A stretch of DNA of 49,717 bases from Candidatus Gastranaerophilales bacterium (lineage in GTDB: Bacteria; Cyanobacteriota; Vampirovibrionia; Gastranaerophilales; Gastranaerophilaceae): positions 1 to 49,717 of the forward strand of contig CALUQL010000007.1 of assembly GCA_944322895.1 (NCBI GenBank), in the 5' to 3' direction. The notes under the pieces are model-generated. The model did no database searches. It was not told the origin of the DNA and saw nothing but the letters and a program-made list of their open reading frames with translations. Shown piece after piece: positions 22,882 through 29,886 of this stretch. Every line of letters begins with the position of its first letter. Position 1 is the first letter of the stretch. The position numbers and the translations under genes were made by a program.

Positions 22882-22915
22882 AAAAGAGAGGAAGTTTAAA
22901 CTTCCTCTCTTTTTA
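22882..22915. terminator. Bidirectional terminator
   Basis: AAAGAGAGGAAGTTT pairs with AAACTTCCTCTCTTT, with T runs on both strands. It lies between convergent genes and can serve both. Confidence 0.9.
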
Positions 22916-24514
22916 TATTGAGTTAATATCATCAACTACATTTGTTATTGCTTTTACTTTAAATAACTTACAAAGTCCCTCAATTAAAACAGGATTAATA
23001 ATATTGGGGCAACAAGGACCAAGAAAAATATTTTTTATGTCTAAATAAATAAAGTTAAATATATGTGCAATTGTTGTTGTATTGCAATCTGTTATAAATA
23101 CACAAATTTCGTCTTTTATTGTTGGTATATTCTGAGTTAATTTTTCTATTATTTTATAAACTACTGAAAAATCGAAATATGAGTTAACGTGCCATATATT
23201 CTCTCGGTTAAAGTTATATGAGAATGAAATAATATAGTTATCTATAGGGCAATTTTTAAGAAATTCATTTATATATTCATTTGATTGATTGAATTGGTCT
23301 ATTAGTCCAATAATGAAAACTTTTTTTATTTCTTTATTTTGAAATTTATCTGATATTAAATTTATTTTTTCATTAATTTCTGATTCATTGTAGCCGATTT
23401 TTATTTTATTTATTTCTTTGTCTTTATCAAATCCTTTAGAATCGAGTGCATAATTGATTAGCGGTTCAAAATTATTATTTTCTATTTTTGCAATGCCAAA
23501 TGCAGGATATTTTTCTGAAGTATAAATTTGTCCTCTTATTACGTCAATTTTTGGTACTGCATTTCCTGAAATGTATATTGGTCCGGGAAATGATGCAAAA
23601 TCCAGCTGAAAATTATTATCTGATTTTTGGTAGTGTCCTACTAAATTGGTAAATTTGTTGAATTCTTTGTATTGAAATGCACTTATCATTTCGTGATGTG
23701 TATAAACATTAATATTTAAACCGTCAACGGCAGTAAGTATCTTTTCTAAATCAAGGAAACTGTTTCCTGAAACAAGAATAGCTTTACCTTTTTTCTTGCG
23801 TAGTGGTACATTTATTTCGCTAACAGGGCCATATTTATCAATTATGGTTGAGTATAGTAATTTCATAATTTTGTAATTGCATTTTGAAAAATTTTTTATA
23901 ACTGATATTAAATCTTCATCACTTAAATCAGGGAAATTGGTTGTATTTAGTAATTTTAAAACTTCATTTTTTGCTTCAGGAAAATCTATTTTTAAGTTTT
24001 TTAATTCTATCAAACAATTACAAGCATTAAATACAAGATTAATCATTATCTCATATAGATTTTTTTTATTTTTCTCAAATTTGATTTTTTTAAATTTTTC
24101 TTGAATATTTTTTTCTTTTTCATTTAATGCTTTTAAAATAATTTCTCTTGACGAATAGTTTTCATCTGGTTCTATAATCAATTCAGGTTTTTTGTTTGCT
24201 TTCTCGCAAGCAGAAATGTACATTTTTTCGAGCATTTTTTTATTATTGTATAAATCTTCTATAATAACGAAAAAGCTTTCTTTCCTGAAGTCAAGATTTA
24301 CAATCAGAATTGATATAAATTCTATTACTTTATCTGTGTATATAGACATATCTATTTCTAGTTTTTTTAGTTTTTCAATGTAAAAGACTATTTGTTGAAG
24401 TTCTGAAACAAATAGTTCTTTTATTGCTGTAACATATGGATCAAAAGCAAATACTGTTGGAGTATTTGCACCAACACATAATGAGTCATAGTAGTTAAAA
24501 AATTTATTCATCAT
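22913..24514 (-). CDS. Hybrid-cluster-protein (Hcp/prismane) homologue lacking cluster ligands
   Basis: The second half of the 533-aa product is colinear with hybrid cluster proteins: KYGP, then AILVSGNSFLDLE for ILISGHDLKDL, INVYTHHEM for VNVYTHGEM, the FPGPI segment, and IKNIFLGPCCP for VKNIVTGPTAP. The family binds a 4Fe-4S and a 4Fe-2O-2S cluster and reduces NO or hydroxylamine. Here the N-terminal Cys motif is missing. By my alignment to remembered Hcp sequences, most hybrid-cluster ligands are replaced: His by Asn251, Cys by Ala319, Leu404, Tyr433 and about Tyr446, and Glu by about Asn478. Only Glu275 remains. The protein therefore probably carries no hybrid cluster, and its role is unknown. 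It begins 7 bases after a glutaredoxin gene, in an apparent operon. Confidence 0.85.
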   Translation of the reverse strand: MMNKFFNYYDSLCVGANTPTVFAFDPYVTAIKELFVSELQQIVFYIEKLKKLEIDMSIYTDKVIEFISILIVNLDFRKESFFVIIEDLYNNKKMLEKMYISACEKANKKPELIIEPDENYSSREIILKALNEKEKNIQEKFKKIKFEKNKKNLYEIMINLVFNACNCLIELKNLKIDFPEAKNEVLKLLNTTNFPDLSDEDLISVIKNFSKCNYKIMKLLYSTIIDKYGPVSEINVPLRKKKGKAILVSGNSFLDLEKILTAVDGLNINVYTHHEMISAFQYKEFNKFTNLVGHYQKSDNNFQLDFASFPGPIYISGNAVPKIDVIRGQIYTSEKYPAFGIAKIENNNFEPLINYALDSKGFDKDKEINKIKIGYNESEINEKINLISDKFQNKEIKKVFIIGLIDQFNQSNEYINEFLKNCPIDNYIISFSYNFNRENIWHVNSYFDFSVVYKIIEKLTQNIPTIKDEICVFITDCNTTTIAHIFNFIYLDIKNIFLGPCCPNIINPVLIEGLCKLFKVKAITNVVDDINSI

Positions 24515-24521
24515 ATAAAAC

Positions 24522-24788
24522 CTAAATCCCTAATAATTTATCTAATTCACCTGTAGTATTTAGCCTTTTTAAGTCATCATAACCGCCAATTCTTTTCTCG
24601 CCAATGATGATTTGAGGCATAGTAACTCTATCTTTTATACCGTAATATTTTCCTAGTTGATTACGGTATTCTTCTTCATTTTCTGTAATATCAATTTTTC
24701 GATATGTGAGACCTTTTTCGTTTAAAAGCATTTCTGCTTTTTTACAATATGGACAATAATCTACAGAATAAATAACTATATCTTTCAT
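24522..24788 (-). CDS. grxC: Glutaredoxin
   Basis: This small thiol oxidoreductase of 88 aa has the dithiol site CPYC, the cis-Pro loop TMPQI and the GGYDDL glutathione-site motif. I chose the ATG at 24788 (MKDIVIYS), with AGGTG upstream, over an in-frame GTG 9 bases earlier. It reduces disulfides or glutathionylated proteins in the cytosol. It is followed within 7 bases by the Hcp-like gene, and co-transcription suggests a shared redox context. Confidence 0.94.
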   Translation of the reverse strand: MKDIVIYSVDYCPYCKKAEMLLNEKGLTYRKIDITENEEEYRNQLGKYYGIKDRVTMPQIIIGEKRIGGYDDLKRLNTTGELDKLLGI

Positions 24789-24866
24789 ATAAAACACCTG
24801 ATAAAATGTAATACATTTAGATTATCCGGTGAATATATAAATAATTTATTAGCCGTATGAATATAG

Positions 24867-25640
24867 TTAATTGCTAATCCTGGAAATTAAGTCTTCAATA
24901 TTTTTCTTTTCATCAGAAGGTAAATCAAAATTTAAATAATCTTGAAAATATTCAATAGCACTTTCTTTATCATTTCGTGCTAAAAATAAAATGCCTAATT
25001 TTTTATAAGAAGGATGGAAATTTTCGTTGCATGAAATTGCTTTTAAGTGATTAGAAATAGCTTTATCTGTATTGTCGTTAGCTTCATAAGTTATGGCTGT
25101 TTGATAGTATAAAACAGCATTATCAGTAACTTTTTCTAATACATTTTCATAATTTTCCGCAGCACTGTCATAGTCACCAAGTTCAAATTGAATGTTTCCT
25201 AAATCCCAATATGCATCAACATTATCTTCATCTATATCTAAAATTTCAAATAATTGATCCATTGCCAAATCATATCTGCAGTCCTCAACATAAAAACGAG
25301 ACAAATAATGCTTCAATGCAATTTCTTGAGGCATAAGCGTTACACCATTTTCTAATAAATTTATAGCCTCAATAATGTTTTTGTTCCTATAATATACATC
25401 TGCAAGATTTATATATGTTTGTACAGATTTTGGATTAAAAGATAATGCTTTTAAAAAATATTCTATAGCTAAATCATCTTTAGCCAATTTAGCATAACAC
25501 AATCCGATATTATTAAGAATATTGGGGTTATTTTTGTCCTCTTCTAATGCTTTAAGGAATGATTCAACAGCTTTTTCATATTCTGTTGCCTTAAAAGCAT
25601 CTAATGCTTGTTGTAAGTTGATATTTATTTCATTTTCCAT
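24867..25640 (-). CDS. Tetratricopeptide-repeat protein
   Basis: The 257-aa protein is built of about six to seven TPR units, with recurring A...Y..A...F/L.KAL...P patterns (for example NILNNIGLCYAKL and ALSFNPKSVQTYINLADVYY). There is no signal peptide if the ATG at 25640 (MENEININ) is used; upstream codons would add an implausible hydrophobic stretch. TPRs act as protein-binding scaffolds, and the partner is unknown. It is divergent from yebC, with 46 bases between the starts. Confidence 0.88.
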   Translation of the reverse strand: MENEININLQQALDAFKATEYEKAVESFLKALEEDKNNPNILNNIGLCYAKLAKDDLAIEYFLKALSFNPKSVQTYINLADVYYRNKNIIEAINLLENGVTLMPQEIALKHYLSRFYVEDCRYDLAMDQLFEILDIDEDNVDAYWDLGNIQFELGDYDSAAENYENVLEKVTDNAVLYYQTAITYEANDNTDKAISNHLKAISCNENFHPSYKKLGILFLARNDKESAIEYFQDYLNFDLPSDEKKNIEDLISRISN

Positions 25641-25686
25641 ACTTTTATTGTAATATAAAATAAAAAAATATGAAAGGATATAATAT

Positions 25687-26439
25687 ATGTCAGGACACTC
25701 AAAGTGGTCAACAATTAAACACAAAAAAGCTGCTGTTGATGCAGCAAGAGGAGTTACATTTCAAAAATTTTCAAGAGAAATAATTGTTGCAGCGAAAATG
25801 GGCGGAGCTGATCCAAGTGGTAATTTTAGATTAAGAACTGCTATTGATAGAGCTAAAGCCGCAGGACTTCCAAATGATAATATAAAAAGAGCTATTGAAA
25901 AAGGTGCCGGCGGGGGTGGTGCTGATAATGTAGAAGAATTAACTTATGAAGGTTATGGCGCAGGTGGTAGTGCTATATTTATAGAAGCAATGACTGATAA
26001 TAGAAATAGAACTGCCGGAGACATCAGAAGCTTTTTCTCTAAATTTGGTGGTAATTTAGGTGAAACTGGTTGCGTTGGTTGGATGTTTAAGCAAGTAGGT
26101 GCTATTGAGTTTCCTAAAGAAAATACAGAGTTTGAAAAATTATTTGAAGCAGCTATTGAAGCTAATGCTCAAGATGTTATAGATGAAGATGATGTTTATA
26201 AAGTAATTACTTCTCCAGAAGATTTTCAAGCTTGCGTTGAAGCTCTTGAAAAGAATGGGTTTAAAGGTTCTTCCGCAGAATTAACAAGAATTGCTGAAAA
26301 TACAGTTGAGGTTACAGATGAAAAAATCGCAACAAATATTTTGAGATTGATGTCTAAATTAGAAGAACATGATGATGTACAGAATGTTTATTCTAATTTT
26401 GATATATCTGATGAGTTAATGGAAAAAATTGATATATAA
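25687..26439 (+). CDS. yebC: YebC/PmpR (TACO1) family protein
   Basis: The protein opens with [15 protein letters not shown] and contains [26 protein letters not shown] and [23 protein letters not shown], all diagnostic. Family members are transcriptional regulators or act in translation through proline-rich or stalled sequences; which applies here cannot be told. At 250 aa it is full length. A strong terminator follows. Confidence 0.96.
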
Positions 26440-27553: not shown

Positions 27554-29584
27554 TTATTGTTCATTGCATCCAAAAGCAATAGTTACTTTTTCTCTTGGAT
27601 TAATTGATGAAACTTTCATACCATTAGGATCAACTAAATAAGTAATTTCATCACCTGTATATTGGAATAACCCCATAGTACCAGATAAAGCAGTTCTTGT
27701 TGCGTCAACAGGTGCTTTGACTATAGCTTTACCTACGTCAAGGTAGCTTCTACCTGCCGCTTTAAATTCACCTTGGAATATTTCACCTGTACCTACACCA
27801 ATTCCGCTTACTGTTTGTTCAACTGCATTACTTGCACTTACAATAGCACCACCAACAGTTCTTCCTACAGTACCAAGTAAACCACCTGTCCAAGTGAATG
27901 GGAATTCAACTATACGTGCAAGTGCATTTGGTTTTTTAACCTTGTTTACTTGTGCTGTTAAAATTTGGTTTGGTAATTCTGCTTTACATTTTCCAAATTT
28001 AATTGTATTGAATGATAATTTAATTGCACCTTGGCAGTGTTTTGTTGGTCTTACTACTTCAAGAACTTTACCGTCGACTCTTGAACCTGCAGGGAATTCT
28101 ACGCCATCAATAGTAACAGAATCAATTGTTGTAGCTGCGAATCTATCACCAACATTAGCTGATTTTGCACTGATTTCATCATTAAATGTAAGTTGAAGTG
28201 TAGGTATAGTTACTACTTCTTCGCTTTCGTAATATGCTTTTTTAGGTTCACATCCGCAATCAGATGCTACATCGTCAGTCTTACTATAGCCCATTGCAAC
28301 TCTGACATTTTCTAACATTGACGCAATTTCAGCACGGCTAGCATCTTTGTTTGGTGCAATTTCTTTAGGATTTGGAAATTCAGATATACCGCCTGACTCT
28401 AAAACTTTTGCAACTGGTACTTTTGCCCAGTTTGGTACTGTATTACCATCACAATATTGGCTTAATACTGTTTCAGCTTTACATTCATCCATTGGACAAT
28501 TTATACCCTTTGCCATTATAGAGAATGCTTCAGCTCTTGAAATTGGCTGATTTGGTTTGAACATATTGTTTGGGTATCCTGTCATTAGACCATTAGCAAC
28601 AGCCTTTGCAATTGTTTTATTTGCCCAATGTGATTCAGGCACGTCTTTAAACATATTTGTAGCGCAAGATACATCATCATTCAAATTAAAACCTTTTACA
28701 ACTAAAGTAGCCATTTCTGCTCTTGATACAGGTAAGCTCGGTTTATATGTTCTATCAGGATAGCCGGCTATAATATTATTTTCTGTTAATGTATTGATAT
28801 CACAGCTTGCCCAATAACCATCGGGAACATCTTCAAATGCGCTTGCAATAGGTGCTGCTCCACCTGTCATTGCTGAGTATTCAAATGGTTCCATTGATTT
28901 TTTTATTGCTTCCATACTTGTATTTGTATGAATTTGCATTGGACATCCTGCTCCATCAATATTTTGCGGATTTCTATCTACAGGAATACCTGTTGCACAT
29001 GGTGGATTGTCTAAGCAAGGTAATGGTGCAGCAGCACCTGTCATACTACCATCATCACAGCCACATCCTACGGTAGTTGTTTGAGCTTCTGCAACAGGAA
29101 CACCTTTAAATGTTGACATTGAGTCATCACCTAAGAATAAGCCATTGTTTCTTTCTCCTACAACTTGGTTATTACCGTAAATGGCATTTGGGTAAGCATA
29201 AACTTGTTGCTGAAATTTCTTACCATCTGCAGGTTGTGGGCATACTGCACATGTTGGTGTTGAAGGCTGTGGACATTGTGCTATTGAAGGGCACGGATTA
29301 CAATCTTGTGCTACCGGTTTACAGGTATCACAGTCTTTTTTCTTTGCACAAGGGTCACACGGTTCTTCTTTTTTTGGTTGACAAGTACAACTATCTATAT
29401 CATTTAGGCATTTTGGACATTTTGCTGTTTGTGGTGTCACAGGAGAAGGGCATCCAGACAAAGGGCAAGCTGCCAAATGTTCATTTGACATTTCAGTTGC
29501 TGTTTCTTGTGTAAAACCTGCATTTGTACCTGCTAATACACCGATTGTTACAACGGCGGCAAGTGTCATTTTGTTTAATTTCAT
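27554..29584 (-). CDS. Cys-rich S-layer-homology (SLH) surface protein
   Basis: The start at 29584 has a strong AAGGAGG and gives a signal peptide (MKLNKMTLAAVVTIGVLAGTNA). The mature N-terminus, about residues 35-125, is extremely Cys- and Pro-rich with repeated CxxC pairs. Three SLH repeats follow, each with an F.DVP..W-like start and a SRAE ending (VSRAEMATLV, ISRAEAFSIM, ASRAEIASML). The last 200 residues contain a beta-rich region and a Gly-rich segment. SLH domains bind cell-wall polymer or outer-membrane-linked peptidoglycan, so this is likely an abundant envelope protein. The Cys-rich region may form disulfides or bind metal. Total length is 676 aa. Confidence 0.9.
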   Translation of the reverse strand: MKLNKMTLAAVVTIGVLAGTNAGFTQETATEMSNEHLAACPLSGCPSPVTPQTAKCPKCLNDIDSCTCQPKKEEPCDPCAKKKDCDTCKPVAQDCNPCPSIAQCPQPSTPTCAVCPQPADGKKFQQQVYAYPNAIYGNNQVVGERNNGLFLGDDSMSTFKGVPVAEAQTTTVGCGCDDGSMTGAAAPLPCLDNPPCATGIPVDRNPQNIDGAGCPMQIHTNTSMEAIKKSMEPFEYSAMTGGAAPIASAFEDVPDGYWASCDINTLTENNIIAGYPDRTYKPSLPVSRAEMATLVVKGFNLNDDVSCATNMFKDVPESHWANKTIAKAVANGLMTGYPNNMFKPNQPISRAEAFSIMAKGINCPMDECKAETVLSQYCDGNTVPNWAKVPVAKVLESGGISEFPNPKEIAPNKDASRAEIASMLENVRVAMGYSKTDDVASDCGCEPKKAYYESEEVVTIPTLQLTFNDEISAKSANVGDRFAATTIDSVTIDGVEFPAGSRVDGKVLEVVRPTKHCQGAIKLSFNTIKFGKCKAELPNQILTAQVNKVKKPNALARIVEFPFTWTGGLLGTVGRTVGGAIVSASNAVEQTVSGIGVGTGEIFQGEFKAAGRSYLDVGKAIVKAPVDATRTALSGTMGLFQYTGDEITYLVDPNGMKVSSINPREKVTIAFGCNEQ

Positions 29585-29886
29585 TTTTCCTCCTTGTTCA
29601 TAAAAGAAATGTACAGGCAAACATTTCTTTTTATCTGTTATTTTTATATCTGTTTTTATTTATAATATTTCTATCTTTGAATTATGATATGTTAGCTACT
29701 CTCTATTCATTACCTTTTAATACAATAGTTATGGCTAATTACTTTTAATTTAAAATTTGAATTATAATAATAATTTAAAATTCATATAAATAAGGGATAT
29801 TTTTGAGGTAAATCATCATACTACAAGTTGATGTTAACTCTGTTGATAAGGTTAAAATATAGATATAGTTTGGTAGGTAATTATTA
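29585..29886. other. Intergenic region upstream of the SLH gene
   Basis: About 300 bases of very AT-rich DNA lie between divergent genes. Apart from the SLH ribosome site at its left end I see no convincing promoter pair, hairpin or RNA gene. Confidence 0.5.

Follow-up and report, generated by a model that had tools for sequence, protein, structure and literature searches.

A homologue of the hybrid-cluster protein stripped of its cluster ligands in Gastranaerophilaceae, possibly turned to thiol-redox use beside a glutaredoxin-like gene

The window analysed here is a stretch of 49,717 nucleotides (contig CALUQL010000007.1 of assembly GCA_944322895.1) from Candidatus Gastranaerophilales bacterium. 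It carries a gene for a pseudo-Hcp, a full-length homologue of the hybrid-cluster protein (Hcp, prismane) that has been stripped of its cluster ligands; this identity is firm. The gene is under strong purifying selection and is not decaying. Two new cysteines, Cys477 and Cys501, are conserved jointly across the family, and in about half of the members the gene immediately upstream is glutaredoxin-like. The reading preferred here, tentatively and at somewhat less than an even chance, is that a metalloenzyme fold has been converted to a glutaredoxin-linked dithiol protein, with Cys477 and Cys501 in the former cluster pocket.

The original prediction, made from the letters of the window alone, took the gene for an Hcp homologue, and this was confirmed by a Pfam profile scan, phmmer, hhalign and structure alignment. 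The protein resembles class I and class II Hcps (Desulfovibrio vulgaris 1e1d/1e2u, Escherichia coli 7de4) over the whole fold and in length, with 19-22% identity in the structure alignment, but differs from them in keeping one of the seven hybrid-cluster ligands (one His, two Glu and four Cys), in having two new cysteines, in a 12-residue deletion of the Cys459 region, and in filling none of the four columns of the N-terminal [4Fe-4S] cysteine motif, the loss of which had also been predicted. With TIGR01703 (hydroxylamine reductase) it scored 191.9 bits, under the curated 360.8. The window protein thus falls outside Hcp on ligands, N-terminal motif and curated score, while fold and homology hold. 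Ligand positions, given in what we take to be the D. vulgaris numbering (Cys312, Cys406, Cys434, Cys459 and Glu494), were mapped by three aligners, phmmer, MAFFT and hhalign (44 members versus five ordinary Hcps), and the codons were checked directly on the DNA. The gene and the mapped positions are as follows.

22913..24514, minus strand: ligand-less Hcp-fold gene, 533 residues; the true start is possibly Met2, at 24511
23762..23764, minus strand: Asn251, former His ligand position (alignments and codon check)
23690..23692, minus strand: Glu275, the sole unchanged ligand position in the window protein (alignments and codon check)
23558..23560, minus strand: Ala319, former Cys312 ligand position (alignments and codon check)
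23300..23302, minus strand: Ile405, former Cys406 (persulfide) ligand position (alignments and codon check)
23216..23218, minus strand: Tyr433, former Cys434 ligand position (alignments and codon check)
23177..23182, minus strand: Ser445/Tyr446, site of the 12-residue deletion including the Cys459 ligand (hhalign and codon check)
23081..23083, minus strand: Asn478, former Glu494 ligand position (alignments and codon check)

Glu275 was recovered by all three aligners as the only ligand left, as predicted, and the predicted replacements Asn251, Ala319, Tyr433 and Asn478 also stood; Leu404 did not, Ile405 being placed there by the aligners. For the Cys459 ligand, predicted at about Tyr446, one MAFFT run agreed, the other gave a gap, and hhalign showed the 12-residue deletion instead. 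Any importance of the single retained Glu was not supported. According to passages of one report (PMC10502027), every Hcp class has the seven ligands. The same passages map the C-cluster ligand positions of Ni,Fe-carbon monoxide dehydrogenase (CODH) onto the Hcp ligands, and on this equivalence, which is taken from that report, the corresponding His and Cys columns are replaced in the window protein. That the hybrid cluster is still held by substitute ligands is highly improbable: the overall fold is kept and Glu275 is present, but six of the seven ligands are replaced, the stretch with Cys459 is missing, and the replacing residues vary among members. A retained hybrid cluster was therefore rejected on the ligand replacement and the deletion of the Cys459 region.

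A total of 146 genomes of the window's family (f1), the window's own included, were searched, and a match to the window protein was found in 141 (125 of 126 among good-quality genomes), of which a few may be ordinary Hcp only, a likely case being G055 with a weak match and an ordinary Hcp. When ten genomes were searched again with a family profile, seven, all of f1, gave no match. Four near-complete f1 genomes (G254, G258, G282 and G030; 97-99% complete) are among those without the protein, and the ligand-less protein is therefore not universal. The family alignment consisted of 146 members, which are distinct full-length sequences with tandem copies included and not one per genome; the partial member L178 and a truncated frame of L021 (3072-4538) were left out, and the latter was left out also of the first ligand-column alignment, as was L002, cut by a contig end.

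Among these 146 members none of the ligands was kept in 99, one in 37, two in nine and three in one. By position, the His ligand was kept in six, the first Glu in 33, Cys312 in two, Cys406 in one, Cys434 in two, Cys459 in eight (with uncertain alignment) and Glu494 in six. Two ligand-less members found later and standing outside the 146 (L188 and L189) each keep one of seven ligands and have Cys at 477 and 501. The loss is thus family-wide; the residues at most former ligand positions vary freely among members, and position 478 is mostly Asp (82 of 146) or Asn (36 of 146). The ratio of nonsynonymous to synonymous substitution (dN/dS) between the window gene and five relatives was 0.054-0.070 by the NG86 method, two of these comparisons being close to synonymous saturation. 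YN00 yielded a value for three of the relatives, in the range 0.039-0.049. With its motif lost and the protein under purifying selection, the window protein is a pseudoenzyme. Ligand loss alone might suggest a decaying pseudogene, but there is practically no chance of this, as it is ruled out by the dN/dS of 0.04-0.07 and by the long open frames across the family, only a few of which carry one stop; its relatives are intact as a rule, and the objection that the original prediction had raised against itself falls away. Tandem ligand-less genes were also observed, three at L056 (5920-10785), two at L060 (429-3688) and two at G051:C220; the pair at L060 has an overlap of 4 nucleotides, which hints at co-translation of paralogues that might assemble into a hetero-oligomer.

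In three sister families of the same order (f11, f12 and f13), full-length Hcps of similar length differ from the window protein in keeping seven of seven ligands, as found in all 12 distinct genes checked (two, nine and one, respectively). In two others, f15 and f2, sampled by three and four genomes respectively, the full-length protein is partly stripped, with three of seven ligands in L202 and two each in L205, L198, L207 and L208; one f2 genome has the ordinary short form only and another a fragment only. Position 477 is not Cys in any of these f15 and f2 proteins, and position 501 is Cys only in that of L202. In a tree of 45 rows, from which the ligand columns were excluded, the intact proteins formed one group (100/99) and the proteins of f1, f15 and f2 fell outside it; f1 was a single clade (100/100), with no settled branching order between it, f2 and f15 (73/61). 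Rooted among the intact proteins, this tree would mean one origin of the stripped lineage, which is provisional because long branches may help place stripped forms outside the intact group. Within the order, the number of ligands kept is therefore graded, from seven (f11, f12, f13) through two or three (f15, f2) to none to three, mostly none (f1). Hits of the class outside the order with ligand columns checked were ordinary Hcps, and no match was found in three genomes of the order outside f1, G309 (99% complete), G306 (88%) and G302 (78%).

Besides the losses, cysteines were gained and kept. Three conserved cysteines of the window protein are the following.

23084..23086, minus strand: Cys477, new cysteine one residue before the former Glu494 position (139 of 146 members, codon checked)
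23012..23014, minus strand: Cys501, new cysteine (138 of 146 members, codon checked)
24206..24208, minus strand: Cys103, conserved but inherited (Cys in 130 of 146 members)

The 477 column is Phe or Tyr in all six ordinary Hcps of the alignment, and the Cys501 loop reads GPT or GPN in the aligned ordinary Hcps, with Thr or Asn in the column itself. Both cysteines are absent in seven members and 501 alone in one; 477 alone is absent in none. Of five changes at 477 on the tree, four are accompanied by a change of 501 in the same direction and none by one in the opposite direction. Predicted strands at 470-474 and 495-498, linked by one helix, end just before Cys477 and Cys501, and closeness of the two residues is plausible on this prediction. 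Cys103 had been considered as a third new cysteine when 72 rows of the family were compared, but in the larger alignment four of six ordinary Hcps also have Cys at this position, and it is therefore inherited, not gained. In the N-terminal motif columns of the 146 members, the first two Cys are found in none and the last two in 123 each, this latter pair having disappeared from the window's genus and from some genera close to it; in coupling analysis it couples to itself (rank 203 by mean-field direct coupling analysis, mfDCA, and rank 4 by corrected mutual information, MIp) and not to 477/501.

The gene next to the pseudo-Hcp gene is a glutaredoxin.

24522..24797, minus strand: glutaredoxin gene, 91 residues, with CPYC (7 nucleotides upstream of the Hcp-fold gene; Pfam Glutaredoxin)

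Its product scored 61.9 bits with Pfam Glutaredoxin (cut-off 22.9) and has the CPYC site, and its score of 86.7 with NCBIfam TIGR02181 is just below the cut-off of 90. Among 143 members (the 146 minus three with too little upstream sequence), 76 are immediately preceded by a glutaredoxin-like gene in the same orientation, and in 73 of these 76 it lies within 30 nucleotides. The neighbours are of two types, 21 window-like and 55 other, related to each other by profile comparison (97% probability), and all of the 12 that were scanned, four of the window type and eight of the second, pass the Pfam Glutaredoxin cut-off. The name glutaredoxin is a simplification for the second type. No glutaredoxin-like gene was found in 30 loci of sister families and later additions, which represent 27 distinct genes including two ligand-less members. 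The loci examined of the partly stripped f15 and f2 Hcps have none. The pair of glutaredoxin-like and ligand-less genes was found in at least two neighbourhoods, one with fatty-acid genes and a tetratricopeptide-repeat (TPR) gene and the other with rpsL/rpsG and a UDP-N-acetylglucosamine epimerase-like gene, most of these names being our assumption from sequence. The best functional clue is that the pair persists in differing surroundings.

The original prediction was supported in part, namely as to a new role for an intact Hcp homologue without ligands. Its wide choice of a structural, regulatory or other-cofactor role can be narrowed, by the family-wide loss, the jointly conserved new cysteines and the glutaredoxin-like neighbour, to thiol redox, which is preferred, or a new metal site. 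In the preferred reading, a full-length Hcp descendant would have stopped building the hybrid cluster and been retained for a different job, with its cluster pocket converted to a thiol site. Cys477 and Cys501, each placed after one of two successive strands in what was the cluster-binding domain, would form a redox-active dithiol/disulfide pair, and the adjacent glutaredoxin-like protein would reduce this pair or exchange thiol adducts with it; candidate substrates are reactive nitrogen, a persulfide or a client protein. The fuller account, in which ligands were shed stepwise within one bacterial order (seven, then two or three, then none to three and mostly none), their place being taken in f1 by the two new cysteines, and the outcome is a metal-free dithiol enzyme with the glutaredoxin-like protein as electron donor, is possible but rather doubtful.

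A number of results weigh against thiol redox. A glutaredoxin-like gene is missing directly upstream of 67 of the 143 members and also of the ligand-less L188 and L189, and its presence does not track the Cys pair (three of eight members lacking the full pair, 73 of 135 with it). The neighbours of the second type (55 of 76) score higher with GST_N_3 than with Glutaredoxin in all eight scanned (Glutaredoxin 28.6-51.7 bits), and 12 of the 76 neighbours have CPYS, with a single cysteine. The sign test for joint loss is small (p=0.125), with too few events, and the coupling analysis, used only as weak support, is noisy, 477-501 ranking 112th of 135,481 pairs by mfDCA and many top pairs being artefact-like. 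The structure model has low quality over residues 297-305 and 317-343. As to a glutathione supply, the ligase PF04262 was found in none of 19 relatives, of which 11 belong to the window's genus, its own genome included, and TIGR01435 was over its cut-off in none of the 19 (weak partial matches in two); 14 control genomes likewise gave nothing over the cut-off of this second model, which makes its control a weak one and leaves glutathione possible. As a side observation, Cys103, Cys477 and Cys501 are all absent in L028 and L053 (genus g9) and the neighbour there has CPYS, but other CPYS neighbours adjoin intact pairs.

The principal alternative, unlikely but the strongest of the rivals, is that the pocket binds another metal or cluster (Zn, mononuclear Fe or [2Fe-2S]) through Cys477, Cys501 and one more residue, for instance His294 or Cys103, and that the glutaredoxin-like protein delivers it. 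Joint conservation of the two new cysteines would fit this, and position 294 is His in 115 of 146 members and Asn in the six ordinary Hcps. There is, however, no strict third or fourth ligand, as 294 is Gln in 25 of 146 and 478 mostly Asp or Asn, and 11 members with both Cys477 and Cys501 lack Cys103. CGFS glutaredoxins are the usual carrier type for Fe-S clusters, whereas the neighbours here are CPYC or CPYS. A precedent in favour is the C67A variant of Mm HCP which, with both normal clusters lost, possibly contained some unidentified cofactor of Fe type, according to passages of PMC10502027.

It is distinctly unlikely that the protein is a structural or regulatory pseudoenzyme acting by protein binding only, with cysteines that stabilise the fold. 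Such a role agrees with the free variation at most former ligand positions and with the absence of a glutaredoxin-like neighbour in about half of the members, but a stabilising disulfide would be unexpected in a presumably cytoplasmic protein of an anaerobe, and the repeated gene pairing stays unexplained.

The window's genome also encodes ordinary Hcp. On contig C30 (L001) of the same assembly lies a 514-residue ordinary short Hcp, of the same superfamily and cell as the ligand-less protein but differing from it by its four N-terminal cysteines and seven of seven ligands; it sits in the intact group of the tree. Contig C143 (L002, 1-1604) carries another ordinary Hcp gene, truncated where the contig ends, and a 131-residue gene just upstream presumably encodes an Rrf2-type regulator. 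The coexistence might suggest that the ligand-less protein serves ordinary Hcp of the same cell as partner, chaperone or decoy. This is very unlikely: ordinary Hcp was detected at E<=1e-90 in only 54 of 142 f1 genomes, against the 141 of 146 with a match to the ligand-less protein, which is therefore an unlikely subunit of it. The ligand-less protein is more widespread in the family than ordinary Hcp and is not dependent on it.

No description of a ligand-less Hcp family in these bacteria was found in the open-access literature. The described Hcp classes share the cluster ligands, as far as passages of PMC10502027 state, and here a widespread, selected family has lost them. If the fuller account of a stepwise conversion is true, the Hcp/CODH superfamily would gain a new functional class, one that relies on thiol chemistry instead of a cluster. 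Together with its partly stripped sister forms, the family documents a route that leads away from a complex metal cluster to a different type of active site, and pseudo-Hcp with the glutaredoxin-like protein makes a concrete gene pair to test. A Prismane/Hcp label in these genomes, several of which are animal-gut metagenome bins according to their records, does not imply nitric oxide or hydroxylamine chemistry.

Upstream of the glutaredoxin gene, a further gene is an uncertain part of the arrangement.

24867..25724, minus strand: TPR-repeat gene upstream of glutaredoxin

A TPR gene occupies that place only in the window's genus and a few other genera. At the sister loci, the partly stripped gene of L202 and L205 (f15) directly follows a gene which we take to be rpoC-like; the rpoC surroundings in f15 and those with presumed rpsL/rpsG in part of f1 are perhaps a shared old locus, which is suggestive only. 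L205 also carries, at 46-2531 downstream of the f15 Hcp-like gene, two tandem genes of 394 and 353 residues with near-identical N-termini. Elsewhere in the window, 27554-29620 on the minus strand encodes a protein of 688 residues that has S-layer homology domains and a stretch rich in cysteine and proline.
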